NCBI GenBank assembly: GCA_030849075.1
Contig: JASAOO010003539.1
Location: 1 to 64,000, forward strand
Direction of reading: 5' to 3'
Length of the DNA stretch: 64,000 bases
Origin: Zelonia costaricensis
Lineage: Eukaryota > Euglenozoa > Kinetoplastea > Trypanosomatida > Trypanosomatidae
This document shows positions 5,964 through 20,570 of the stretch, piece after piece. A program made the position numbers and the translations under genes. How positions within the stretch are numbered: position 1 is the stretch's first letter; each line of letters begins with the position of its first letter. The notes under the pieces were generated by a model, which saw nothing but the letters and a program-made list of their open reading frames with translations, was not told the DNA's origin and did no database searches.

Positions 5964-8081
5964 ATGGCAACGCTGAAGGAGTCGCTGAGTTTAACGCCGG
6001 CGGTGCCGCCGACGATGCTGCCCAACACGTGCGGTGAGGAGACGGGCCTGCCTGGCGTGCCGCGGGTGGGCTGCGTGGCCGCCGTTGCGTACCGCCCAGA
6101 GAGCTTGTACGGCTTTGCGGCCTGCTTCATCGGTCTGGCCGACGGGGTCGCCTTGCTCGGGCCCGACCTCGCCCAGCGTCGCCACGGCCACCGCTGCCTC
6201 CTCACTCGGCACCTGTGGCGCCCCGCCGTGCAGGTCGAGGACGGTAGCGGCCGCCCAGCCGCCGACGCGCATGGCGGCCTCGGCGGCGCGGCGGTGCCGG
6301 TGCGAGGGGTGCCCGCGCCAGCGCTGCTGTCCCACACCGAAGGCAGCAGCAGCGCGAGTATTGTCACCCTCACCGCGTGTCTGGCCGCGGGCGAGGGGGG
6401 CTGCGAGGGCGACGACACGGCCGCCGTGGTGGTGGTCTGGGCCGACGCGGCACTGCAGCACCACGTCACGGTCCTCTCTGTGCGCCTACGAGCCATTCTG
6501 ACGCCGTGTGCATCCGTCAGCGCGGGGTGCAGGAGAGTCCCTTCCGAGTCGGGGCTTGTCCAGGTCGTCGCACACCGCGCGCTGCCGCTCTGCTGCGGGC
6601 AGTCTGTGCTCCGCCTCTTTTACCACCCCGCCATGGCAGCGCCCCACGCGGCCCCGGAGACGCGGCACGTCGTGACGTGCTCCGTGTACTCCCCGTGGGC
6701 GGCCACGGCGCACACAGGCGGCGGCGCCGGCGGAGCGACAGGGCTCGAGAGAGGCGGCACCGCGACGGGAGCGCGGCGGCGCGGCGAGCTGCTGTTTCTC
6801 ACCATCTTCGCCACCGTGGCGACCGATGACGCCGGCAACAGTAACGGCGACGGGGTCACGTGCGGGCGCCTGCGCGTGCGGGCTGCGCCGTCCGCAAGCG
6901 AGCACGTGGCACCGTGGTTGCTGCCCTTCCAGCCCGGCCGCGTTGTTTGCGCCTTTGCCGTGCAGTCCACCTCCACCAGCGTCATAGCGGCTGCCGGCAC
7001 GACGGACGGCCGCGTGTACCTGCTCGGCCAGACGACGCAGCGCCTCGTGCGGCGCGTCAGCGGACCGGTTGCGGACGCGGTGTTTGTGCGCACGCGGCCT
7101 GCCAAGGCGCAGTCCGGGGCGCGGCACGCCGTGGTGGACGACCTGCTTGATGACGCGGTGGCCGAGGACACGGTCAAGAACGGGAGCTTCACCAGCCATA
7201 CAGGGGAGGAGATGGCACGCCGCGACGGCAGCGAGTTTGCCGCGCTCGTCGTCCTCGACAGCTCTGGCCACCTGCTCGTCCTTCGCGCCGTCAACAGCGG
7301 TGCCGCGATCACGCAAAGCGTCGCCGATCTGCCGCAGGTGGTGGCACTGTCCAACACCCACCAGCAGCCCCAGCAGGACCTCCCCTTTGTAAGCACCACC
7401 ATGACCAGCCTCGAGGAGGGCACGCAGATCAGCTCCAAGAGCTTCCTGGACCTCAGCACGCTGCGCCACTTTTTTTGGCGGCGGCGCCCTCCAGCGCCGT
7501 CGCACCAGCAGCCCAAAGCGCACCAGCAGCAGCCCCAGGCTGCGCCCTCACCACTGCCAATCCACCATGCGCCACCGCAACAGCAGCAGCAGCGCCGTCC
7601 TGGCGGCGGCAGTCCCTCGCCGGCCAACCCGCCGCTCGCCTCCAGCAGCCTGACGACGTCGCCGGCGAACCACAGCTTTGTGGGCAACGCCGCTGCGGGT
7701 GAGGAGCCTCCGATTGCCGGTCACATCCTCAGCCGCGGACTGCTGTGCGTGACGTGCATCGACAACGCCAAGGGTGGCGGCACCGAGCTGGTCGTGAGCA
7801 CGATGGGGCAAGTGGTTGTGTCCGTGCCCTTCAGCCCACTGGACGGCTGCTTCCGCATTGCTGGCTTCACCGTGACCCCTGCGCCGATGTTCTACGTAGG
7901 GTTTCTCGACTTCTTCGCAGACGGCAACCCGACGCTGGTCATGGCTGGGTTGAAGAACGTGCTCGTCGCGAGCCGCCCGCAGTCCACCCTGCGCGACCGC
8001 GCTCAGCTGCTCCTGCGGCTTCTCAACAAGAAGGAGCGCGAGCGTCAGAACGCCGACAGCGACGGTGCCGTCGAGGCCTGA
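5964..8081 (+). CDS. Kaptin-like beta-propeller protein
   Basis: A 705-residue product with the overall layout of kaptin (KPTN), the propeller subunit of KICSTOR, which in animals tethers GATOR1 to lysosomes to control mTORC1. The best evidence is the C-terminal 125 residues: the block LLCVTCIDN...TELVVSTMGQVVVSV resembles the kaptin block of an FG-GAP-like Asp-rich loop plus ELLVATYGQ-type strand. It is followed by a second strand pair (FLDFFADGNPTLVMAGLKNVLV) and a terminal charged helix (LLLRLLNKKERERQ). Earlier segments show short hydrophobic beta strands of a propeller. A Gln/Pro/His-rich insert at about 510-560 makes it longer than animal kaptin. The ATG at 5964 follows AG 5956-5957. 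The family call is my own alignment by eye and needs a profile search. Confidence 0.5.
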   Translation: MATLKESLSLTPAVPPTMLPNTCGEETGLPGVPRVGCVAAVAYRPESLYGFAACFIGLADGVALLGPDLAQRRHGHRCLLTRHLWRPAVQVEDGSGRPAADAHGGLGGAAVPVRGVPAPALLSHTEGSSSASIVTLTACLAAGEGGCEGDDTAAVVVVWADAALQHHVTVLSVRLRAILTPCASVSAGCRRVPSESGLVQVVAHRALPLCCGQSVLRLFYHPAMAAPHAAPETRHVVTCSVYSPWAATAHTGGGAGGATGLERGGTATGARRRGELLFLTIFATVATDDAGNSNGDGVTCGRLRVRAAPSASEHVAPWLLPFQPGRVVCAFAVQSTSTSVIAAAGTTDGRVYLLGQTTQRLVRRVSGPVADAVFVRTRPAKAQSGARHAVVDDLLDDAVAEDTVKNGSFTSHTGEEMARRDGSEFAALVVLDSSGHLLVLRAVNSGAAITQSVADLPQVVALSNTHQQPQQDLPFVSTTMTSLEEGTQISSKSFLDLSTLRHFFWRRRPPAPSHQQPKAHQQQPQAAPSPLPIHHAPPQQQQQRRPGGGSPSPANPPLASSSLTTSPANHSFVGNAAAGEEPPIAGHILSRGLLCVTCIDNAKGGGTELVVSTMGQVVVSVPFSPLDGCFRIAGFTVTPAPMFYVGFLDFFADGNPTLVMAGLKNVLVASRPQSTLRDRAQLLLRLLNKKERERQNADSDGAVEA

Positions 8082-9256
8082 CAACGATGCGACGGGGGGA
8101 GGCGTGCAGTGAGTCGCCGCGGCGGCTGCGACTCGCGCGGCGTTTTCTTACGTATCCTTTGGGTGCACCACTGCAGTGGTGGGTGCGGGGTGCAGCGCCT
8201 CCTCGCCACGCACCCTTTCACCAACCCTTCAAGCTCTATGCGCCACCACATGAAGCAGAGAAGACGAAAGTACACGCACAAGACTATTGCGAGCATGTGA
8301 CAGCAGTCCCGTGCGCGCACGCAACCTGGAAGGTCCTGCCACACAGCGCAGCTTCGGCGCTGCAGCCGACAGCTTACACGAAGGTAGGCTCCCTCGCATT
8401 TGAGGGGGAGGGAGAGGCGCCTACAACGCAGCGCGGCCCTCGTCATCCTGCTTCTCCCTCCACCACTCTCTCACATGCACTTGCGTCCCCCTCTCTCTTC
8501 CCACCTCCCACGTCATACTCCTTCAGAGTGCGTTGTACGGAGCTGGCACTTTGCTTCGCATCCCCTCGCCCTCCCCTCCCTTTCCCACCTCCAAGGTTTC
8601 CACCGCAGCGCGGCGGCTCTGTTTTGGGCGCATCCTGTAGAAGTGCTGCTGGGCGCTGCGCTGTGAATCACTACCTCACACATCAGCCACGCCACTTCTT
8701 TCTTCGTTCTGCCTCCGCTTCCCCGCCCTCAACCCCCGTCCCCCACACGCGCCTTGTGCTTCTTTTCTTCTCTCCCCGTCACGAGAGCGTCCATCACGTT
8801 CTTCTGCTCTCGGCGCCTCGCAGGGGGGGCTCCTGCGCCACACCTCGTTGGGATGTGCGCGGCCCCTTTTATTGTTGTCCCTTCCCGCGTTCTATTGGTA
8901 GCCCACCCAGGCTTTCGACGCTCTGCTGTGCCCGCGGCGTCTTGTCTGCTCGCTGCCCTTCCCCCCTCTCCGTCCCCCGTCGTCTGTCCACCTCCCGCTG
9001 CCGTGTCTACCATCGCTCACTTAACTCTGCTACACTCTGCCCTTCTTTAGCTCCGTCTGTGCGCGTGGCCCTCCCCCCCCCCTCCCCTTCCCCCGCTTTC
9101 TTTGTTGCTGACTTCCGCATTTATTTTTGTTGCCTCGTCCCGTTCTCCTTTTTCCTCTCACGAACACAGCGCAATACACAACCACGGTTCTCACTTTTTC
9201 TCCTTTATTCACTTCAAGCTGCCACCGCCCCCAAATCATCCTTCCAGCTGACAGCT
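8082..9256. other. Intergenic spacer with strong pyrimidine tracts
   Basis: The 3' UTR of the kaptin-like gene carries a 16-bp perfect palindrome at 8066-8081 plus 100 (8166-8181). From about 8400 the sequence becomes strongly C/T-rich. Splice acceptor candidates for the CLEC16A homologue are AG at 9168-9169 and 9217-9218, each after a T/C tract. The frame of the next gene is open through this whole region, but the translation is low-complexity Ser/Pro/Leu/Arg, not protein-like. Confidence 0.6.
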
Positions 9257-11980
9257 ATGGACAAGCTCAAGGAGGCGTTTGGGCGGGTGGACAAGTTCTC
9301 GCTCGAGAACGCGAATGGGCTGTGCGACGAGGTGGAACGCATCGAGGACACGCTGCTCGGCGACGCGAGCAAGGGCGAGGCAAGCGGCGCCTTCATGAAC
9401 ACCGCGCTGCAGCGCATCCGCGACCTTACCGAGGTGCTCGTCTGGATGGACCGCCACCGCGACGAGTGGTTTGAGCGCGTGATGGAGCGCAACGTCATGA
9501 ACACGCTCGAGCGGCTCATCACCAACGGCCTCATGCCCGCGGCCGTGAAGCTGCAGAGTCTGCAGTGCGTCACGGTCCTCCTGCAGAACCTCTCCCGCAC
9601 TTCCTCGCTCTTTTATGTCTGCAGCAACAACCACATCAACCGCATGGTCGCCGTGGAGTTCGACATCCAAGACGACGAGTTTGTCTCCCTCTACGTCTCC
9701 TTCCTCAAGTCCTTGGCGCTGCGCTGCACACCGGACACGGTGCAGTTCTTCTTCGACGTGCAGAGCGACGCCTTCCCGCTGTGGGACCGCGCCGTGCGCC
9801 TGCTCAGCTCCGACGACGCCATGGTGCGCACCGCGGCCAAGCAGATCATCGTCACGGTGGCGCAGCTGCGTGACGCGGCAGTGCTGGCCTTTGTGTCCAA
9901 GTCGATCAACGACGTCTTCCGCAGCGTGTTGCGCTTCATCGACGCGCAGCTCATGCGGCTCGCATCGACGCTCCCGTCGTGGGGACCACCAGCCAGCAGC
10001 GCGCAGCCGCGGCAGCAGCCCACGCTAGTCAACCTTCGCGCCACCACGGTACAGCTAGAGGACCTGGAGGACGAGTTGTTGTACGTGAACGATCTCTGTC
10101 GCACACCCGTGCCCCGTGCGGGGGAGCAGGCCGGGGCGATGCTGCGGCAAGTGCTGTTCCCACGCCTGCACGCGACGGTAGAAGCAGAGGTCGGCAGCTC
10201 GCAGCCCGCATCGCCTGGTCGGCCGAGCAGCAGCAACGTCGCCTACGCCCCCGCGAGCACCGCGCTGGCCTTTCTCCTGTACTGGATACACGTCAACACG
10301 GACTCGTACATCACCACCGCCCTGGTTTGCTTTTTCCTCCAGCCGCCAGACCACAGCACGGCAACGTCGCAGGCCACCGTGGCCGCCCTCGTGCTCGAGT
10401 CGCCGCGGGTAGACCTGCACGAGGTTGTGGTGGAGGTCTGCCGCTACGCGCAGCGCCGCGTGCAACAGGCCGCCGCAGCGGCGCCCGCCACCACGGTCGC
10501 AACGCCGACCCCAGCGAGCTCGCTCTTGCGGCCGCCGACGTCGCTCGCGCAGTTCTTCTACACCGACACGCCGCACCAGCAGACCGGCCGCATCATCGTC
10601 GGGGGGCCCGGCACCACGATCCTGCCGCCCAAGGCAACGTTTGTGCAGAAGGCGTGGCCGTACCCGCCGCCGCCCACCACCGCCGTCACGGCCGTCACCG
10701 CACTCCTGCCGCACATCGTGGCGGCGCTCTACGGGCAGCTCAAGTATTTCCAGGTGACGCGTCTACGCTGCCTCGTCGCGACGCTGGCGCTCCTCCTTGA
10801 GGTGCTGCCCGTGGACTCGCCGGACGCGCCGTCTCGGACGACGCACGTGTACGTGGAGCTGATGAAGCTGGTGCAGCGCCGGATGCTGGAGTGTGTGAAG
10901 CAGTACGCCTCGGCCATTCAGGCCGCAACAGCTGCGCGGGCGGCGGCTGACGGCGACGTGCCGCTTTCCCGCATTTCCTTTGTTGACATCATCGAGTCGG
11001 TCGACGAGGAGGCGGTGCTGCCCATCCGCGACCCGTACGCGGTGTTCTTCCTCAAGCTCAAAGAGGCCGCGCAGTGGATCGAGGCCGTGGACGCGGCGGC
11101 AGGAGCGGCTCTGTGGCTGTGCAGCACTGCGGGGGCACCGCCACCGCTGGACCCCCGGAAGGACCTGCATGTCTTCTGCCCGGGCTTTCCCCTCCTCTCG
11201 CAGGAGCGGAGCGGCCTCGCGCTGAACCCCTGGCCGCCGCTGCTGCCCATGACCTACCAGCAGCAGCCCGGCGACGCCGCCGATTGGGCAGCTGCCTACC
11301 AGGCAACGCAGGAGAGCGTTGTGCGCGCCTTCGACTACACCGCGCGGTCACCCGTGTCGGAAGAGGAGAGCGAGCTGAGTCTGTATGTCGCGTTCCTCCT
11401 CATCCGCCGCGCGTTTGCCACGCTCGGCGGGCGCGGCCTTGGCGAGGAGGTGCTGCATGCGACCCTGCAGCAGCTCCGTCCACGCCACGAGGTGTCCACG
11501 TACTTCACGCTGGCCGAGTCCACCGTGGACCTCTCGGTGCGGTGCGAGCTGACGAGCGAGTGGCACCCAGACAACTACACACCGCCGATCCCACCGCTCG
11601 GTACGCCGGTGTGTCTGGTCGTACCGTGCACCACCTCCGTGGCGGAGGGACGCGAACTGCTTCTGCTGGAGATTCCGGCCTGTGTGCCAGAGCACGTGCG
11701 GGTGCAGGAGCTGCGCTGCGGCGAGTTCAAGCGCCGCGTCCTCTGCAGCCTCGACCTCGCGTTCGTCGCCATTGCACTGCACCCGCAGTACGCCTTCAAA
11801 GTGGTGGTGTCGTACCAGCTGCCCGGTCACATGGCGGTGCTGCACCTCGTCACGGCAGACGCGCCAACAGCGCGCCGCGTCGTGACAGACGTTGAGAAGG
11901 CGGCCACTGTGTGCCGGCAGCACGGCGCTTCCCTGTGCTTCGGACTCATGAACTACCGGAGTGCTCTCATCGATGTGTAG
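9257..11980 (+). CDS. CLEC16A: CLEC16A homologue (FPL domain)
   Basis: CLEC16A (fly ema, nematode gop-1) is an endosome-associated scaffold acting in endolysosomal trafficking, autophagy and mitophagy. The 907-residue product carries the FPL domain at about 45-205. The motifs LTEVLVWMDRHRDE, LQNLSRTSSLFYVCSNNHIN and DDEFVSLYVSFLKSLALR align closely with the family, and the armadillo-like helical pattern continues after it. The middle (about 235-480) contains Ala/Pro/Thr-rich inserts. The C-terminal third has the conserved-looking block ending AASLCFGL-type sequence before LIDV. The ATG at 9257 is placed directly before the conserved start (MDKLKEAFGRVDKF) and after acceptor 9218; the long upstream open frame is pyrimidine spacer. 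Confidence 0.85.
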   Translation: MDKLKEAFGRVDKFSLENANGLCDEVERIEDTLLGDASKGEASGAFMNTALQRIRDLTEVLVWMDRHRDEWFERVMERNVMNTLERLITNGLMPAAVKLQSLQCVTVLLQNLSRTSSLFYVCSNNHINRMVAVEFDIQDDEFVSLYVSFLKSLALRCTPDTVQFFFDVQSDAFPLWDRAVRLLSSDDAMVRTAAKQIIVTVAQLRDAAVLAFVSKSINDVFRSVLRFIDAQLMRLASTLPSWGPPASSAQPRQQPTLVNLRATTVQLEDLEDELLYVNDLCRTPVPRAGEQAGAMLRQVLFPRLHATVEAEVGSSQPASPGRPSSSNVAYAPASTALAFLLYWIHVNTDSYITTALVCFFLQPPDHSTATSQATVAALVLESPRVDLHEVVVEVCRYAQRRVQQAAAAAPATTVATPTPASSLLRPPTSLAQFFYTDTPHQQTGRIIVGGPGTTILPPKATFVQKAWPYPPPPTTAVTAVTALLPHIVAALYGQLKYFQVTRLRCLVATLALLLEVLPVDSPDAPSRTTHVYVELMKLVQRRMLECVKQYASAIQAATAARAAADGDVPLSRISFVDIIESVDEEAVLPIRDPYAVFFLKLKEAAQWIEAVDAAAGAALWLCSTAGAPPPLDPRKDLHVFCPGFPLLSQERSGLALNPWPPLLPMTYQQQPGDAADWAAAYQATQESVVRAFDYTARSPVSEEESELSLYVAFLLIRRAFATLGGRGLGEEVLHATLQQLRPRHEVSTYFTLAESTVDLSVRCELTSEWHPDNYTPPIPPLGTPVCLVVPCTTSVAEGRELLLLEIPACVPEHVRVQELRCGEFKRRVLCSLDLAFVAIALHPQYAFKVVVSYQLPGHMAVLHLVTADAPTARRVVTDVEKAATVCRQHGASLCFGLMNYRSALIDV

Positions 11981-12012: not shown

Positions 12013-13666
12013 AGCGCGTCGTGCTCACCGTTCTTTCTTGTTCCCCACACCCCCAGCGTGTCGGCGCGTGTGCGGCAGCGAAAGGGGCCTTTGCAGGTGA
12101 GATCATGTGTTTCTTGTCTGTGATGGCGGATCGCCTGCCATTGCCGTCGTGGTGTGTAACCGCGCTCGTGTCTGTTCGGGTGAGTGCGGGTGTCAGTGTG
12201 TGTACGGTGCTGTGTCAGAGTGTGTAGGTGTCACATTGGTTTTGTCGCCGACGTCGCTCGCAACGGGGGACGAGCAAACATACGCATGATGAAAACGAGA
12301 ACAAGCGATGCACCAACCGCTGCCCATGGGTCGCGTCCCACCAATAGTGCCAAGGCCGGTGCCGCCGCGCATCGCCTGGCACAACACAAAACAAAAAGAA
12401 CCTGCCGTCGAGGGAGGAACGCGCACCCAGTATACCAGGTACCTTCTTACGACACGGCGACTTGCGTTGGTCCTCGGCTCCTTCGCAACCTGTTTCACAA
12501 ACCCGCGCACGAGCGTCTTCTCTTCTTTTGTGTTGCCCTGCCCATCACTTGCTCTCTCTCTCGCTCTCTCTTTCTTTCTTTCTTTCCTTTCCGTCTTTCT
12601 CCTGCCACTCCTTCCATCTTCCTTGTGGGCTCCTCCTCCGCGTCACACGGACCTGCACCCCACGCACGACCGCGCACCCACCCCCCACCCCCCAAGAACG
12701 CCCTCCACGTCTTACTTCACTTCTTAACTCGCCCTCACCAGCCTCTCTCCCCCTTTGTTCTTTTCCTTCTCTCTTCTTTTTGTCTCTTGTTTGTTTCTGC
12801 GCGTGTACACCGGTGCCAGTGGGTGTTCCGTCCTTAGTGTTGACTCCTCGTCACTCCTCCTCGCTAGCCTTCAGAAGCAGCTTGCCCTCCCTGTCTCTCT
12901 CTTAGCAAGTTGCTTTTCTTTCTTGTTTAGCCACCGCACGCGCACTCCCTCACGTCAGCGAGGCGCCGCGGCACAGAAAGCGCAGCTACCGTTGCAGCAC
13001 ACACGCTGCCGGACTCGCAAGGCCCTTGCCTCACACGCACACGCCGTCTCTCTCTCTTTCTTTGTCGTTGCGACCACTATCAGTCTCCGGGAGGCAAAGA
13101 AAAGGTCAAACCCAAAAAGCGGTGCCACTTGTGCGCTGCGAAACCCCTCCCTCCCCCTTCCTGGCCGACTTGCTTCTCTTCCTTCTCGTTGTCGTTGCGG
13201 GTCGATCTGCGTCGTTTTTTGTGTTGCGCTTTCCGTCGTCAGCTCCTCCACACTCGCTTCCGTCACAAAATAAAAAGGTGGACAGATCCCCAACGTCCCC
13301 CTCTCTCCCTCCCCCCCCCCCCGGCCGGCCCCCTCATCGCCATTTCTTTTCTTGTTTGTTTCTTTGCTTCTCCTTCACGTCTTCTCGCGAGAACGGACCC
13401 CCACCCCCGACCCTACCTCCACTCCACCTCACACACACACACACACGCATAGACCACAAACCTGACGCTCGAGAGTCACGCCAGTCCGCACCCACTTCCC
13501 GTCTCATCCGTCCGTCTCTCCCCCTGTTGTTGTTCTTCTTCAAAACGGTAGACTGCTGTGCGCTCGGCTTCGCCACAACCTGTGCTACCCCATTGCACGT
13601 CAATCGCACCCTCTCCCTTTCTCATACACAACCACTTCCTTTTCTGTTTCTTTTCCTTGCGACGCC

Positions 13667-13668
13667 AG
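13667..13668 (+). promoter_or_regulatory. Splice acceptor for SET-array gene
   Basis: A 40-base pyrimidine tract (cctttctc... to ttttccttgc) ends at gacgccag, with AG two bases before the ATG at 13671. This fixes the start codon and excludes the long upstream open frame (from 13026), whose translation is low-complexity Ser/Pro/Leu. Confidence 0.6.
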
Positions 13669-13670
13669 CC

Positions 13671-16600
13671 ATGAAGGCCCCCACCGCGTTCAGCGTGGGC
13701 GACATCGTCGTCCCGCTGCCCCGCAGTTTTGCCGTGTGCGAGGACCGGCTTGTGCTGCCGGACGGCGTGACGGTGCGGCACGGCGACAACTTCAACGTCA
13801 CGATCATCAGCCACTTCCTCGTCGCCGTGAAGCCCTTCAGCGCCGATGCCGAGGTGATCGTCAACCTCAACCTGTGCTTCTACGACCTCCTCAAGTCGGG
13901 CCTCTCGCCAACGACGCCGGCCGCGGAGTGCTGCGAGACGCGCACCCCCAATGCCGCCGTGGCGCACACGTTTGAGCGGCCCGCCGTGCCGGGCTTCCGC
14001 TACCTCGCCGACGAGGCGAAGCAGGAGCTGTACCGGTTCGCGGATGAGCAGGTGCGGCAGCTGGCGATTCGCGACGGCTTTCTGCCGCGTGGCAGCGACG
14101 AGGGTGGACTGACCGTGGCGCAGGCGAAGCCCGGTGAACCGATCGCGGTCAGCACGAAGGAGCACGAGGAGGGCGACGTCGTCTTCGAGACGACCGGCGT
14201 GCCGCTGCCCTTTCCCGTGCGCAGCACCGTTGAGCTGCCCGGCGACTCGCACCTCCGCCTCACCGGCGGCTCCGAGTTCCTGCAGCACTCGTGCCTGCCC
14301 AACATGCGCCTCGAGATCGACGGCGCCCGCATCCGCGGCATCGCCCTGCGCACCATCGAGGCCAACGAGAAGCTGACGTACAACTACCTGACGACGGAGT
14401 GGGAGATCAGCAAGGTGTTCCACTGCTCGTGCAACGTGTACTGCTGCTACGGCCTCATCAAGGGCTTCCGCTTCCTGGACCGCGAGCAGCAGGAGCACCT
14501 CCTGCCGCACTGCAGCCCCGCCGTGTGCGAGAAGTTCCGCTCGCCGCTGCTGTCGGGCGCCACGCTCGGGGCCCTCAGCGGCAGCACGGCGCTCTTCACC
14601 ACGGCGGAGGGCCGCCTCACGGCCCAGCGCGACCTCGACGCCGGCACGGTGCTCTTCGACGTCTGCGGCACCCCGCGGCTGGACCGCAACGAGCTCGTGC
14701 TGGACCGCCTGCGCCTGTCGCACTCGTGTGACGCGAACACCATTCTGGTCAACGGCCGCGTCGTCGCCTCGCGTCCCCTCGCCGTGGGTGACGCCGTCAC
14801 GTGCAACCTGAACCTCCTCTACTACACCCTGTCTCCTCCGCTGCCGTGCGGCTGCGGGGCCGCGAGCTGCACGGGCCACGTCCAGGGGTTCAAGGCGCTG
14901 CCGGTGGCGCGGCAGAACCTGTGGTGGAGCTGGGCGGCCAACGCCGTCCGCGCGGCCGCGCTGGATGACGGGCGGGCGATCGTGTCGGCCAGCGCCGTTG
15001 TCGAGGTGCGGCGCACTGCCGCGATCGGCGACGCCACCTTTGCCGCGCGCAACATCGCCGCCGCCACCCGCATTTTCCACGTCCACGGCCTCGTGCTGCC
15101 CTTCCCCACCGTCTACACCATCTACCTCGGCGAGGGCAAGCACCTGCTCTTCGCCGACGGCGCCCAGTGCCTGGCGCACAGCTGCAACCCGAACACCCGC
15201 ATCGTCGTGAACCCCGACACGGGCAGCCTCGACTGCTTTGCCCTGCGCGACATCGCCGCCGATGAGCTCGTCTCCTTCAACTACCTCACGACGGAGTGGG
15301 ACATGAGCGAGCCGTTCCCGTGCGCGTGCGGCAGCACCGATTGCTACGGCCGCATCGCCGGCTTCCGTCACGTGCCGCGGGGCGGCCAGCTCAAGCTGTG
15401 GAGCATGGCGACGCGGGCTGTGCAGTCGCTCTTTGCGCAGAGCATCCGCCAGACGGCCAGCACCCTCGCGACGCTGAACAGCGCGCTCATCGCCCCATCC
15501 GGGCACAACGGGTCGCTCTGCCTGTGCGAGGACCTCCCCTCCGGCACCGTGCTCTTCGAGGCCGTCGCGGGCTTCACGGTGGAGGGCGGCCGCGTCTGCT
15601 TCGGCGACATCCTGCTCGCCCACGCGTGCAACGCGACGGCGGTGCTGCTCGAGGGCCGCGTGGTGCTGCGCGACGCAAGCACGGCCGGCACGCAGGTGAC
15701 CGTGAACGTCAACCAGATCTGCTACCAGCTTGCCACGCCCTTCACGTGCCACTGCGGCGGAGCCGACTGTGCCCAGCACGTTGGCGGCTTCGCGGCGCTG
15801 CCGGACGCGGAGAAGGCGCGCCTGCTGCTGTGCACCGCGCCGGACGTTCGGGCGGCAGCGGCGGCGGCCGGCTACACGATCCCGTGTCCGTGCCCGCTTG
15901 TGCACGTCAAGGCGAATGGGGCGATGGGGCAGGCAACGTTCGCGGCCCGCCGCATCCCAAAGGGCACGCGCTTCTTAAAGGTGCACGGTCTCGTGCTGCC
16001 CTTCCCCACCGTCTACACTATTCAGCTCGAGCGCGGCCGCCACCTGCAGTTTGCCGACGGCGCCCAGTGTCTGGCACACAGCTGCACCCCGAACGTGCGC
16101 GTCATGGTGGACGCAGAGAGCCGCTCGCTCGACTGCCTCGCCCTGCGCGACCTCGCCGAGGGCGAGGTGATCGCCTTCAACTACCTGACGACGGAGTGGG
16201 ACATGAGCACGCCGTTCCCGTGCCTGTGCGGCGACGCACAGTGCTTCGGCCGCATCCGCGGCCTCAAGTACCTCGCGGCGGAGCAGCGGCAGCGACTGTG
16301 GTGGATGCTCACCCCGGCGATGCGCCAGCTCGCCGAGCAGTCGGCCAATTGGAAGGCCCTCGCAGGGGCGCAGCTGCGCACGGACACGGCAGGGCACGTG
16401 CGGGCCGCCAAGGAGCTGACGGAGGGGCTGCCCATTCTCCAGGCCTCGCAGGTGCAGCTGCGGCGTGGCGGCGCCATCGTGGACGGCGTGCTGCTTCGCC
16501 ACAGCTGCGCGCCCACGGCGGCGGTGGTGGAGCGGCGCGTCGTCATGACAGTCACCGTGTGCGCCGGCAGCGAGATCACGCTGGACCTCCACTGCCTCGC

Positions 16601-18107
16601 CTACACACTCGACGAGCCCTTCGAGTGCGACTGCGCGGCCGAGGCGGCGCCGCACACCGTGACGGGCTTCGCCGGCCTCAGCGCGGCGGCGCAGGCGGGC
16701 CGGCTGATCCTGACGGAGCCGTCGGTGCGGGCCGCGGCCCTGCGTGACGGCTACCACGTGCCGTGCAGCTGCCCCCTGGTCGAGGTGCACGCCAATGGCG
16801 AGATGGGGCAGGCCACCTTCGCGGCCGCCAACATCGCCGCTGGCACGTGCTTCTTCCAGGTGAAGGGGCTCTGCCTCCCGTTCCCGACCGTGTACACGAT
16901 CATGCTGGACGAGGGTCGCCACCTCCTGTTCGCCGACGGTGCCCAGTGCCTGGCGCACAGCTGCGACCCCAACGTGCGAGTCCGCGTCGATGCGCGCAAC
17001 AACGTGCTCGAGTGCCAGGCCCTGCGCGCCATCGCCGCCGGGGAGCTGATCGCCTTCAACTACAACGCGACGGAGTGGGACATGAACACGCCGTTCCGCT
17101 GCCTGTGCCGGTCGCCGCAGTGCGCGGACGAGATTCGTGGCTTCAAGCACCTGTCGCAGGCGCAGCGGACAGCGCTGCAGCGGCAGGCGACGCCGGTCAT
17201 CAAGGCGCTCGCCTCGGCCTACGCGGATGTCCAGCTGCCCGCAACGCTGCTGCGCGCCGGGCCCGACGGCCGCCTCACCTCGTCGCGCGCCGTGGCGAAG
17301 GGCTCGATCCTGCTCGAGGTCATGTACCTCGATATCCAGCCGACGCAGATCTGCGTGGGCCGCCACTACGTCGTGCCGCACGACGCGCAGCACTACAACT
17401 GCGTGCTGGTGGAGGGCCGCCTCATCGCGAGCCGCGCCATCGCGCCGGGGGAGCCGCTGCTGGTGAACATGGACTTTTTTGTGTACGACATGACCGCCCT
17501 CTTTCCGCACACCTTCGACGAGGCGTGCAAGGGCTTCAAGTATATGGACGAGGCGGTGAAGCAGACGTGCCTTTACCTCTGCGAGCCGCCGGTGCGCGCG
17601 CGTGCGATGCGGGAGGGCTGGATTGTGACGAGCACACAGGACGCCCTCGTGGTGCGGCCTAACGGGGACATGGGGCAGACGGCGTACGCCAAGGTGGACG
17701 TTGCCGCCGGCACGCGGCTGTTCCACTGCACCGGGCTCGCGATTCCGTTCCCGACCATGTACACGATCTGCGTCGGCCACCACCAGCACCTCCTCTTCGG
17801 CGATGCGGCGGAGTGTGTGGCGCATCACTGCGACCCCAACGTCGCCGCGTGTGTCGGCGAGGAGGGCGAGGGCACTTTTGACTTTGTGACGCTGCGCGAC
17901 ATCGCCGCCGGGGAGATGGTCACCTTCAACTACACGACCACCGAGTGGGACATGAACACGCCGTTTGTGTGCCTGTGCGGCTCGCCAAAGTGCGCTGGCA
18001 CGATCCAGGGCTTCAAGCACCTGAAGGAGGCTGACCAGCAGCGTCTGTGGCCCATCACGTCAGACGTGGTGAAGGATCAGTGGAAGGTCTACACCGGCTC
18101 CGCGTGA
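13671..18107 (+). CDS. Tandem SET-module protein, five paired repeats
   Basis: A 1478-residue protein built almost entirely of SET-like modules alternating in two types. A modules keep the SET core: G-x-M-G-Q-x-T/A-[FY]A start, LPFPTVYTI, then LAHSC-x-PN, ALRDIAAGE, FNY and EWDM, and a post-SET C-x-C-x4-C. Their HSC/HHC motifs lie at residues 206, 503, 803, 1096 and 1385, a spacing of about 295. B modules are shorter and degenerate: HSC/HAC at 351, 651 and 944, lost in the fourth, and no recognisable motif in the N-terminal one. Each B also ends in a GF-x-x-L stretch like A. SET domains are usually S-adenosylmethionine-dependent lysine methyltransferases. Here the Asn of the canonical NHSC motif is replaced in every module (Q, A, A, A, A in A; S, A, R in B), so activity is uncertain. 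No signal peptide or membrane segment. Confidence 0.85.
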   Translation: MKAPTAFSVGDIVVPLPRSFAVCEDRLVLPDGVTVRHGDNFNVTIISHFLVAVKPFSADAEVIVNLNLCFYDLLKSGLSPTTPAAECCETRTPNAAVAHTFERPAVPGFRYLADEAKQELYRFADEQVRQLAIRDGFLPRGSDEGGLTVAQAKPGEPIAVSTKEHEEGDVVFETTGVPLPFPVRSTVELPGDSHLRLTGGSEFLQHSCLPNMRLEIDGARIRGIALRTIEANEKLTYNYLTTEWEISKVFHCSCNVYCCYGLIKGFRFLDREQQEHLLPHCSPAVCEKFRSPLLSGATLGALSGSTALFTTAEGRLTAQRDLDAGTVLFDVCGTPRLDRNELVLDRLRLSHSCDANTILVNGRVVASRPLAVGDAVTCNLNLLYYTLSPPLPCGCGAASCTGHVQGFKALPVARQNLWWSWAANAVRAAALDDGRAIVSASAVVEVRRTAAIGDATFAARNIAAATRIFHVHGLVLPFPTVYTIYLGEGKHLLFADGAQCLAHSCNPNTRIVVNPDTGSLDCFALRDIAADELVSFNYLTTEWDMSEPFPCACGSTDCYGRIAGFRHVPRGGQLKLWSMATRAVQSLFAQSIRQTASTLATLNSALIAPSGHNGSLCLCEDLPSGTVLFEAVAGFTVEGGRVCFGDILLAHACNATAVLLEGRVVLRDASTAGTQVTVNVNQICYQLATPFTCHCGGADCAQHVGGFAALPDAEKARLLLCTAPDVRAAAAAAGYTIPCPCPLVHVKANGAMGQATFAARRIPKGTRFLKVHGLVLPFPTVYTIQLERGRHLQFADGAQCLAHSCTPNVRVMVDAESRSLDCLALRDLAEGEVIAFNYLTTEWDMSTPFPCLCGDAQCFGRIRGLKYLAAEQRQRLWWMLTPAMRQLAEQSANWKALAGAQLRTDTAGHVRAAKELTEGLPILQASQVQLRRGGAIVDGVLLRHSCAPTAAVVERRVVMTVTVCAGSEITLDLHCLAYTLDEPFECDCAAEAAPHTVTGFAGLSAAAQAGRLILTEPSVRAAALRDGYHVPCSCPLVEVHANGEMGQATFAAANIAAGTCFFQVKGLCLPFPTVYTIMLDEGRHLLFADGAQCLAHSCDPNVRVRVDARNNVLECQALRAIAAGELIAFNYNATEWDMNTPFRCLCRSPQCADEIRGFKHLSQAQRTALQRQATPVIKALASAYADVQLPATLLRAGPDGRLTSSRAVAKGSILLEVMYLDIQPTQICVGRHYVVPHDAQHYNCVLVEGRLIASRAIAPGEPLLVNMDFFVYDMTALFPHTFDEACKGFKYMDEAVKQTCLYLCEPPVRARAMREGWIVTSTQDALVVRPNGDMGQTAYAKVDVAAGTRLFHCTGLAIPFPTMYTICVGHHQHLLFGDAAECVAHHCDPNVAACVGEEGEGTFDFVTLRDIAAGEMVTFNYTTTEWDMNTPFVCLCGSPKCAGTIQGFKHLKEADQQRLWPITSDVVKDQWKVYTGSA

Positions 18108-19379
18108 GTGACACAGACGCGTGGAGTTGGGAAGGGGAGGAAGGGGGGAAATGAGGCGCAGCAGGGGCGCTCAGAGTCGTCACCAGCGCTTTGAATTGCC
18201 GACGGGCCACCGCGGCGCTCTCGGGCTGCCTCGCCCCTCTTCCTGCTCCGCTCCTCCACGGCGCCGCCACCAGTACGCTTCATTTATTTTTCTTTCTTCG
18301 TTTCCTTCTGTTTCCCTCTTGACTCCTCGCTTCTCCTCTTCACGTGCGTCCTGAGCTGCTGGCTGGCGACGTCGGCACGCGGACTGCAGCCATCATAAAA
18401 CCCACTAGCCCACCCACCCCGCCACCTCTCCTTCCTCTCTCACCTTTGGTACTTCCTCGGGCCTTCGCTTTTTTTTTTGTGTGTGTGTGGAGGGTGTGGG
18501 GGTGGTTGGGGGGAGGGAGGGGCGACTCACCAGTCTCTTTTCCGCCTCCCCTCCTCCCTCCCCGCATCTCTTCCTCGGCCGTCTCCCTCACTCTTCTTCT
18601 TTCTTTTTTTTTCGTTTGTCCGTCCTCCCCGCCGCCTTTGTGCACCGGCGCCTCCCAACCCCTACTGACGCGGATGGGGCTGTGGCGACCGTGGGGAAGG
18701 GGAAGGGTCGAGTGCCCGATCTAAGCACGAGCCCCGCTGCACCCGACGTCGTCTTGAGGCGGCGCACTTGCGGGAGCACGACGTGAGCATTGTGCGAAGA
18801 CTTGCTGCGTTTGGCAGCGGCTGCCCCCCTCCCAGCGGCTGCGTCTCCACATTCACAAAAGGGGGAAGGTGAAAAGTGGCTCAAGGTAAAACAAGAAAGC
18901 GAGCAAGGGCGGGGAGCATTGCATGGAGCCAAGGACGTGCATGCGCCATTCACCGTCGGCTGTTTCGTCGCTGGCCCCCGTCGTGCACTGCAGGCGGCCC
19001 AGCGCTTGACCGCTAGCGCAAGAGCAGAGAGTGCCTTCACGCCGGTCACGGCACGGCAAACGAAACTGCCACCGGCACCATCTGCCCGCTCCTGAGTACA
19101 CCAACCGTATCTCCGTTGTTGTTGATTTTTTATGTGTGTGCCCTCTTCCGTCGTTGCCTTCTCGTGTGCTCAAGCATGTGCCCAACACATGGGCGCCGTG
19201 CTTGAACGCCAGATCCCCCGTCTACCATAAAGTGACGTGGCATGAACCACCAACCCCCACCCCATAGATGCACCCGCCGACGCCCCAGCTGTACTGACCT
19301 AGTACTGCCTCTGTGTGGATTGTCTTGACAGTCTCCCTTTTTTTTTCTCCTCGCCGTGCTGCGAAGCTGTAGACCCACA
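18108..19379. other. 1.27-kb spacer
   Basis: C/T-rich runs at about 18270-18350 and 18540-18650, a T run followed by GT repeats near 18470-18490, then mixed sequence. The last pyrimidine tract (19331-19352) precedes AG 19365-19366. No gene recognised. Confidence 0.6.
19365..19366 (+). promoter_or_regulatory. Splice acceptor fixing ePHD gene start
   Basis: The tract gtctccctttttttttctcc is followed by the first AG at 19365-19366 (a second is at 19371-19372). Both lie downstream of the earlier in-frame non-ATG codons and upstream of the ATG at 19380, so 19380 is the first start in the mature mRNA. Confidence 0.55.
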
Positions 19380-20570
19380 ATGCAGGCCGCCGCGAAGACG
19401 CGCAAAAGGGTGCGCTTTGGTGCCGTCACGCACGTCTCGCCACCCCCGCTGGAAGACACGCCGGCCGCGGACGTGCACCGCCGCTGCGGTGGCAACGGCG
19501 GTGCAGACGTGGCAGGCCACGACGCCGAGCTCCTCCCCGGCACAGGCGAGAGCGACGGCTTTGGCGCCGCGCGGCGCGTCACCCTCCTTCTGTGCTCTGC
19601 ACCGCCCCCCTCGAGCGAGGTGCGGCCCGTCATTGTCGTCGACGTAGAGGATGATGAGAAGCGTAGCAGTCCCGTGATGGCATCACCAGCCGCGCCGGCA
19701 CTCCCATGTGCGCCGTCGTCCCCGCCTCAGCCGCCATGCCTCGCCGACGAGGTGCCGTTGGACGAGGCAACGTACGACACACCGCTGGAGTGCGCCGCGT
19801 CAGCGGAACGGCGCGGAGGTGACGTGCCCCTGCCGCCGCCGCGACCGGAAGTGGCCGAGTCCAGCGGCGCCTCCCCGACCCCTCGCGGCAGCTCGCCGAC
19901 GCTCTCGCAGCTGCTGGCAGCAGTGGACGACGTGCTCGGCGGCGGCTCGCAGCGCGCCAGCCAGAGCCCTGTGCCTAGCGTACTTGGTGTAAACGCGGAC
20001 GGTCGCGCGAGCCGCAGCTCCACGCCGCCGCCACCCCAAAGCCAGGTCCAAGAGAGCCCGCCAGCGCCAACGTGTGCTTCGAATGAAGCCACTCCTCGCG
20101 AGGCTGCACCGGATGCGCCGTGCTGCTCTCTCCCACCACCCGCACCTGCCGACGAGTCTGCAGCGGTCTCAGGGGACGGTGCGCAAGCTGCTACGCCGGT
20201 CAAAGCGAACGCCGCCGCCTGCATTTTTTGTGGAGCGGGCGACGAAGGCACAGCCAGCGCGCACCCGGCGCCACCCTTGTGCGTCACAGGTGGAGTCACG
20301 CACCACATGCCGTGCGCTCTCTGGTGCCCTGAGGTGTACTACGACGTCGAGCGCGGCGCGCTGCAGGGCATCGAGGCAGCCGCCGCTCGGGCACAGGGCA
20401 TCAAGTGCGCGCTGTGTCGCCGCCCTGGTGCTGCCGCGGGGTGCGCCTGCGCGACGTGCCCTCTCAGCTTCCACGTGCCGTGCGCTGTGCGGGCGCACGC
20501 CTCCGTGGATGTGGATGCGTTCCTGCTGTACTGCCCCGCTCACCGATGCCAACGAGAGGGCCCCCGCTGA
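19380..20570 (+). CDS. Extended PHD (ePHD) zinc-finger protein
   Basis: A 396-residue protein with a C-terminal extended PHD finger from C281 (CIFCGAG) to about residue 392 (CPAHRC). The order is C-x2-C, then HHMPCALW, GIKCALC, CACATCPLSFHVPCA and a final CPAH, the C2HC-plus-PHD arrangement of zf-HC5HC2H proteins (PHF6, BRPF and JMJD2 families) that bind nucleic acid or histones. Residues 20-275 are Pro/Ser/Ala-rich and probably disordered. The N terminus has a basic patch with R10-V11-R12-F13, a perfect PP1-docking RVxF motif. No second chromatin domain is present. A nuclear chromatin or transcription role is likely by family; the PP1 link is inference from one short motif. Confidence 0.75.
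   Translation: MQAAAKTRKRVRFGAVTHVSPPPLEDTPAADVHRRCGGNGGADVAGHDAELLPGTGESDGFGAARRVTLLLCSAPPPSSEVRPVIVVDVEDDEKRSSPVMASPAAPALPCAPSSPPQPPCLADEVPLDEATYDTPLECAASAERRGGDVPLPPPRPEVAESSGASPTPRGSSPTLSQLLAAVDDVLGGGSQRASQSPVPSVLGVNADGRASRSSTPPPPQSQVQESPPAPTCASNEATPREAAPDAPCCSLPPPAPADESAAVSGDGAQAATPVKANAAACIFCGAGDEGTASAHPAPPLCVTGGVTHHMPCALWCPEVYYDVERGALQGIEAAAARAQGIKCALCRRPGAAAGCACATCPLSFHVPCAVRAHASVDVDAFLLYCPAHRCQREGPR

Follow-up and report, generated by a model that had tools for sequence, protein, structure and literature searches.

The 64,000-nucleotide stretch of Zelonia costaricensis DNA analyzed here (the window) contains, at positions 13671-18107 of the forward strand, a single reading frame of 1478 amino acids plus stop that encodes ten SET-like modules, in which a degenerate module (B1-B5) precedes each of five modules (A1-A5) that look catalytic. 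The array is real and conserved and is not an artifact. Judged by sequence, its A modules belong with the prokaryotic, BurB-like, single-domain SET proteins of the EWDM type. BurB is a Burkholderia thailandensis methionine S-methyltransferase that acts on free methionine (PMC12542666). We propose, with a confidence somewhat short of even, that the array is a multi-site methyltransferase for an amino acid, a peptide or a related metabolite and that the B modules are structural pseudo-SETs. The novelty lies in the array and in the alternation with pseudo-modules, built on a SET of the BurB-like kind. The features, all on the forward strand, are as follows (counts refer to the 26 proteins described below).

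13671-18107, +, whole gene, ten-module SET-array protein, 1478 amino acids
13671-14054, +, B1, residues 1-128, degenerate SET without the Cys of the HxC motif, a residue other than Tyr at the Tyr position in 26 of 26
14055-14525, +, A1, residues 129-285, SET with His206, Tyr239 (Phe in P0026, the Trypanosoma brucei equiperdum protein) and the post-SET Cys
14526-14945, +, B2, residues 286-425, degenerate SET, HSC and post-SET Cys retained, Tyr lost
14946-15410, +, A2, residues 426-580, SET with His503 and Tyr538
15411-15851, +, B3, residues 581-727, degenerate SET, HAC and post-SET Cys retained, Tyr lost
15852-16310, +, A3, residues 728-880, SET with His803 and Tyr838, predicted SET fold with BurB at the top of the list
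16311-16730, +, B4, residues 881-1020, degenerate SET, HSC retained, Ala at the third post-SET Cys position, Tyr lost
16731-17189, +, A4, residues 1021-1173, SET with His1096 and Tyr1131 (Phe in P0026)
17190-17603, +, B5, residues 1174-1311, degenerate SET, HxC Cys and Tyr both lost
17604-18104, +, A5, residues 1312-1478, SET with His1385 and Tyr1421

The A-to-A distances were 297, 300, 293 and 289 residues, in line with the repeat of about 295 residues described in the initial annotation, and the positions it gave for HSC/HHC (206, 503, 803, 1096 and 1385) and for HSC/HAC (351, 651 and 944) were exact. Direct repeats in the DNA of the gene, with main families of 867-900 nucleotides, were in the same register as the modules. 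The frame stays open upstream of Met13671 as far as 12906, but Met13671 is supported as the start because the 12 closest relatives measure 1473-1480 amino acids. No second full copy of the array was found among the best candidates scored in the Z. costaricensis genome.

Pfam recognized SET (PF00856) alone in the whole protein, in five stretches (E=3.1e-39), and no pre-SET, chromatin or protein-interaction domain, as expected from the earlier statement that no other domain is present. When the modules were scanned singly, SET was found in five of five A modules and none of the five B modules. Orthologue profiles of each module were also compared using HHalign with a reference profile built from 17 single-SET EWDM proteins, eight of them titled bacterial or archaeal records. 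A1-A5 each matched at 100% probability and B1-B5 at 98.2, 99.5, 99.2, 98.9 and 98.1%, respectively, over 101-117 columns, against no more than 10.8% for 50 column-shuffled B-profile controls. The B2 profile also matched BurB at 3.9e-7. By these profile comparisons all ten modules are SET-like, including B1 and B5, which have no HxC Cys. The structure predicted for A3 was a SET fold, with BurB heading the structure list and histone lysine methyltransferases (KMTs) close to it; the listed region spans model residues 138-286. In a model of the B3-A3 pair, the B3 part had block means of 81-94 from residue 21 and of 41 and 53 in the first two blocks, while B2 modeled alone was poor (predicted local distance difference test score, 44.9). 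The ten SET modules in strict B-A alternation that had been proposed are thus confirmed, by Pfam for the A modules and by HHalign for all ten, and the non-SET fold that had been considered is rejected on the results of HHalign and the A3 model.

A whole-length search returned 31 proteins among the best 7999 candidates scored. Of these, 25 match over at least 99% of the array, a result that disposes of the other concern raised initially, that orthologues might have a single SET domain and the remainder be an assembly artifact. Among the named full-length matches, the orthologues of Leishmania, Novymonas, Porcisia, Leptomonas and Lotmaria stand at 74-83%, those of T. grayi, T. theileri, T. melophagium and T. 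cruzi at 50-52% and those of T. vivax and T. brucei equiperdum at 45%. Another five proteins are shorter or partial (Strigomonas, Angomonas, T. conorhini, P0029 and P0030), and the remaining one, P0032, resembles cyanophycin synthetase and has a SET domain. P0029 and P0030 are divergent arrays of near-identical units, with five and four A modules, respectively; the near identity suggests recent duplication or conversion of units. The judgment that the architecture is unusual was upheld, but "undescribed system" was too strong for the protein itself, since existing annotations of the orthologues already call them SET domain proteins.

Residues were counted in P0001-P0026, the 26 full-length proteins. 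The SET Tyr is present in 26 of 26 at A2, A3 and A5 and in 25 of 26 at A1 and A4, that is, in 128 of 130 positions, the two exceptions being Phe in P0026. At the equivalent position of each of B1-B5, Tyr occurs in none of the 26. Every A module has an invariant HxC His and Cys and three invariant post-SET Cys. B2 and B3 retain these Cys, with a single exception in B3, and in B4 the HxC Cys is kept together with two post-SET Cys, the first and the second. A1 is divergent, with 31-33% identity to the other A modules.

The relatives of the A modules were sought in several ways. A profile built from 12 A modules found 42 proteins, and two strict peptide patterns located 22 EWDM SET loci in 84,980 bacterial and archaeal genomes. 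A broader EWDM ("NYLTTEWDM") profile found 1115 proteins at E<=1e-10; among the 120 listed, the eight named by organism were all from bacteria or archaea. A quick tree (92 rows, 149 columns) was built with four trypanosomatid proteins, the own-genome SETs L001 and L002 and, as EWDM rows, 21 loci, BurB and 16 P-numbered proteins; L030, P0068, six own-genome SETs (L003-L008) and the greater part of the 42 profile matches were left aside. All 29 A rows and the 38 EWDM rows fell into a single group that excluded L001 and L002 (Shimodaira-Hasegawa-like approximate likelihood ratio test, 91), so that the suggested phylogeny against EWDM-type SETs places the A modules with them. Within this group, A2-A5 and the P0029/P0030 copies formed a starred group (98), although stars from the quick method are less trustworthy on long branches, and the BurB branch is long. 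The first A module of each of P0029 and P0030 grouped with A1 (93), and the support for all A modules as one group was 50. A1, A2, A4 and A5 each grouped by position over the four trypanosomatid proteins, while A3 lay beside A4 with the fork open. Because of these position-wise groups and the full-length orthologues, we infer that the array existed before Leishmania and Trypanosoma diverged. In the free tree the B modules stood apart as a clade of their own (99), but a single clade of A and B was not rejected (approximately unbiased test, p 0.718). A bacterial origin of the array is possible, the trypanosomatids being the eukaryotes sampled in this tree. Pairwise identity was discarded as evidence of B-A kinship, since the A-B values of 22-37% overlap the 19-38% obtained in 20 shuffles of one pair. 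A single scan of viral contigs for a giant-virus source yielded 15 pattern matches, among which there was no relative.

BurB (9l4t.pdb and 9l4v.pdb) is the closest solved relative, being the best PDB match by sequence profile as well as first in the A3 structure list. It shares with the A modules the HSC and Y..TE motifs, a CxC-x4-C post-SET and the lack of an Asn before HSC. In the alignment its Y124 corresponds to the A-module Tyr; the Y124A mutant was reported to be nearly dead and Y124F to have more than 60% activity (PMC12542666). BurB has 172 amino acids and one SET per chain and is a tetramer in solution (PMC12542666), whereas the array has ten modules per chain, half of them without the Tyr. 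The EWDM-type proteins share the TEW(D/E)M motif and the tree group with the A modules, and those inspected have one or two SETs per chain, except for array-like pieces such as P0079. Histone KMTs (KMT2/MLL, ASH1L, EHMT and SETD2) have in common with the A modules the SET fold, the NY/DY Tyr and the post-SET Cys; unlike them, the array has no Asn before HxC, no pre-SET and no chromatin domain. Among the best 60 PDB sequences listed, the non-BurB matches begin at profile position 63 or later. More than one SET per chain also occurs in a Chlamydomonas Su(var)-class protein, but there two SETs are combined with SAD_SRA and PreSET (PMC5725981). Human TTLL12 joins a SET-like domain to a ligase-type (TTL-like) domain and is described without an array (PMC3520985). 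SET-J3C (LtaP35.2400) was rejected as an orthologue, since the similarity to SET reported for it covers residues 70-227 and is followed by a zinc finger (PMC8544896).

The genes around the prokaryotic EWDM SETs suggested a metabolic setting for part of the family. At 12 of the 22 loci the SET gene lies by or near genes for amino-acid ligases, nonribosomal peptide synthetases (NRPSs) or pyridoxal phosphate-dependent decarboxylases, and at 11 such a gene overlaps it or is within 133 nucleotides. The adjoining gene encodes an ATP-grasp protein in L012 (where the ligase is in frame with the SET), L013, L016 and L032, an NRPS in L021, L024, L025, L031 and L033, and a protein resembling ornithine or diaminopimelate (DAP) decarboxylase in L014 and L015; in L017 an ATP-grasp-SET gene is 1945 nucleotides away. 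These counts rely on neighbor models built from 10 of the 12 positive neighbors themselves, and the Pfam scan of neighbors covered 20 chosen genes. Three NRPSs scanned with NCBIfam were Pls/PosA-like and two decarboxylases were LysA-like, all under the curated cut-offs; Pls makes poly-lysine. In a second draw, from the Planctomycetota, an EWDM SET was found at E<=1e-25 in 13 of 294 genomes and adjoined an NRPS in six of the 13, or in five of the 11 previously unseen. In L070-L073, L075 and L076 an NRPS adenylation enzyme is directly beside the EWDM SET, L070 being the L031 genome again. In the Myxococcota, 8 of 195 genomes had an EWDM SET, and none of the seven scanned adjoined a gene of the ligase, NRPS or decarboxylase families. 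Four myxococcal EWDM SETs are in frames of 433-473 amino acids and both of those scanned, L083 and L086, are fused to a class I methyltransferase of the UbiE/Methyltransf_25 type.

Four of the 22 EWDM loci (L012, L013, L016 and L017) contain a gene that combines an ATP-grasp domain with another SET. Three of the four have further ATP-grasp genes, and L013 also has an ATP-binding cassette transporter. From their gene content the four loci look like a small-peptide pathway; a literature search for ATP-grasp with a SET domain returned nothing on them. These fusions carry a SET, as the array does, but theirs is a single SET of another subgroup, joined to a domain resembling D-Ala-D-Ala ligase. With a profile of six ATP-grasp-SET proteins, the whole fusion was found in 5 of the 22 EWDM genomes, four of which had supplied rows to the profile, and the ATP-grasp part only in eight more. 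Among 299 control genomes, all of the phylum of G003, there was no whole fusion and there were 16 ATP-grasp-only matches (Fisher p 9.6e-7 for enrichment of the fusion in EWDM genomes, with a control limited to one phylum and overlapping the test set by G003, and with at most the best five candidates scored per control genome). Z. costaricensis itself has ATP-grasp-SET fusions on contigs C688 (L001) and C558 (L056), in both of which Pfam recognized the D-Ala-D-Ala-ligase-like half. In a third protein, on C746 (L002), the N-terminal ligase half looks degenerate and Pfam saw SET alone. The SETs of C688 and C746 grouped with those of the bacterial fusions (97, quick tree). Three other PF07478 matches in the genome (two on C96, one on C350) were set aside as ordinary enzymes, their sequences reading as carbamoyl-phosphate synthetase and acyl-CoA carboxylase. 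The initial annotation had the architecture right and missed both these proteins and the BurB-like kinship of the A modules.

In the mechanism that we propose, five BurB-like methyltransferase modules, each preceded by a pseudo-SET, would be fused in one chain. Each A module would bind S-adenosylmethionine (SAM) together with a small side chain, and the Tyr would shape the pocket by analogy with BurB. The methylated side chain would belong to an amino acid, to a short peptide or to a derived metabolite, not to histones. The B modules would be catalytically dead structural partners, each packing on its own A module. Since BurB is a tetramer, a fused B module may stand in for an oligomer partner. 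NRPSs, decarboxylases of the ornithine/DAP type and cyanophycin synthetase all act on amino acids, among them several basic ones. Given the amino acids of these neighbor enzymes and the Met of BurB, derivatives of Lys, ornithine or Met are the first guesses for the substrate. The array may also cooperate with the ATP-grasp-SET proteins of its own genome; because the genes are on separate contigs, we infer this link, as we do the activity of the A modules, the small substrate and the structural role of B. An extension of the proposal, that kinetoplastids have a two-part amino-acid or peptide system of bacterial type, in which ATP-grasp-SET ligases and a five-site SET assembly line act on one small molecule and have nothing to do with chromatin, we regard as unlikely.

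Several observations weigh against a small-molecule enzyme, 1) histone KMTs are the next-best matches after BurB, both by PDB profile and by structure, 2) the residue before the HxC His of the A modules is never Asn in the 26 proteins, while this Asn is kept in 133 of 138 listed EWDM homologues (BurB also has none), 3) the other 10 of the 22 loci had none of the neighbor families by the models used, and 4) T. brucei contains mono-, di- and trimethyl-lysine in free form, their methyl carbons being derived from Met, and shows no labeled carnitine, but these methyl-lysines rise under sinefungin (PMC5976210), so they may stem from protein turnover and not from a free-lysine methyltransferase. The Asn of the NHSC motif is typical of KMTs; of the KMT features, then, the A modules have the catalytic Tyr and not the Asn.

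The leading alternative is a multi-site protein-lysine methyltransferase, in which the A modules would act on a repetitive or multi-lysine, probably cytosolic, protein that the B modules position. The SET fold, the intact Tyr and the post-SET Cys of the A modules are consistent with it, as is the structural closeness of the histone KMTs. A report that localizes most T. brucei SET proteins (29 in all) to the cytoplasm, and in which the orthologue of the array was not identified, makes non-histone targets possible (PMC8559703), although a cytoplasmic location would suit a metabolic function just as well as a cytosolic protein target. We consider it rather unlikely, since in both sequence comparison and tree the A modules lie nearest to EWDM SETs, of which about half have metabolic neighbors, the Asn is replaced, and Pfam finds no pre-SET, chromatin or protein-interaction domain. 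The tetrameric state of BurB raises another possibility, a chain-fused BurB oligomer in which one or two A modules are true enzymes and the remaining modules are regulatory or oligomerization copies. The divergence of A1 and the Phe at the A1 and A4 positions of P0026 agree with this, but Tyr is invariant in A2, A3 and A5 and all five A modules have Tyr or Phe, which makes such a division of labor improbable. Least probable, in our estimate, is a mostly non-catalytic, zinc-rich scaffold or binding protein whose modules would bind one another, SAM or a methylated ligand without transferring methyl groups. Loss of the Tyr in five of ten modules and of the Asn in the A modules would suit it, and the initial annotation had offered a reader-like scaffold or a structural protein. 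Neither role is favored for the chain as a whole, because Tyr and zinc Cys persist in all five A modules, the only substitution of the Tyr is the Phe with which BurB remains active, and a pure scaffold leaves the A/B split without a reason.

Long antisense frames lie opposite the gene, at 13476-15905 (reverse strand, 809 amino acids) and 15975-18020 (reverse strand, 681 amino acids), and are probably a by-product of codon use on a GC-rich coding strand. The upstream flank (7745-11980, forward strand) encodes an FPL-domain protein and the downstream flank (19356-20570, forward strand) a PHD-like zinc-finger protein; no link of either to the SET array was seen.

Search listings of the open-licence PMC literature contained no mention of a multi-SET kinetoplastid protein. 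T. brucei is reported to have 29 (PMC8559703) or 33 (PMC5976210) SET genes, a number described as far above expectation, with protein-lysine targets assumed and none characterized in T. b. brucei (PMC5976210). L. donovani SET7 and SET29 have since been studied, and the available portions of these reports do not treat the array (PMC10907163, PMC11871502). Five catalytic-looking and five dead SETs that alternate in one chain, and that have been kept from Leishmania to T. brucei equiperdum, are an unusual enzyme architecture. If the array is a BurB-like small-molecule enzyme, part of the trypanosome SET set has been assigned to the wrong field of biology. If the two-part ligation and methylation system is also true, part of the SET surplus would be metabolic and its product would be a novel methylated metabolite.
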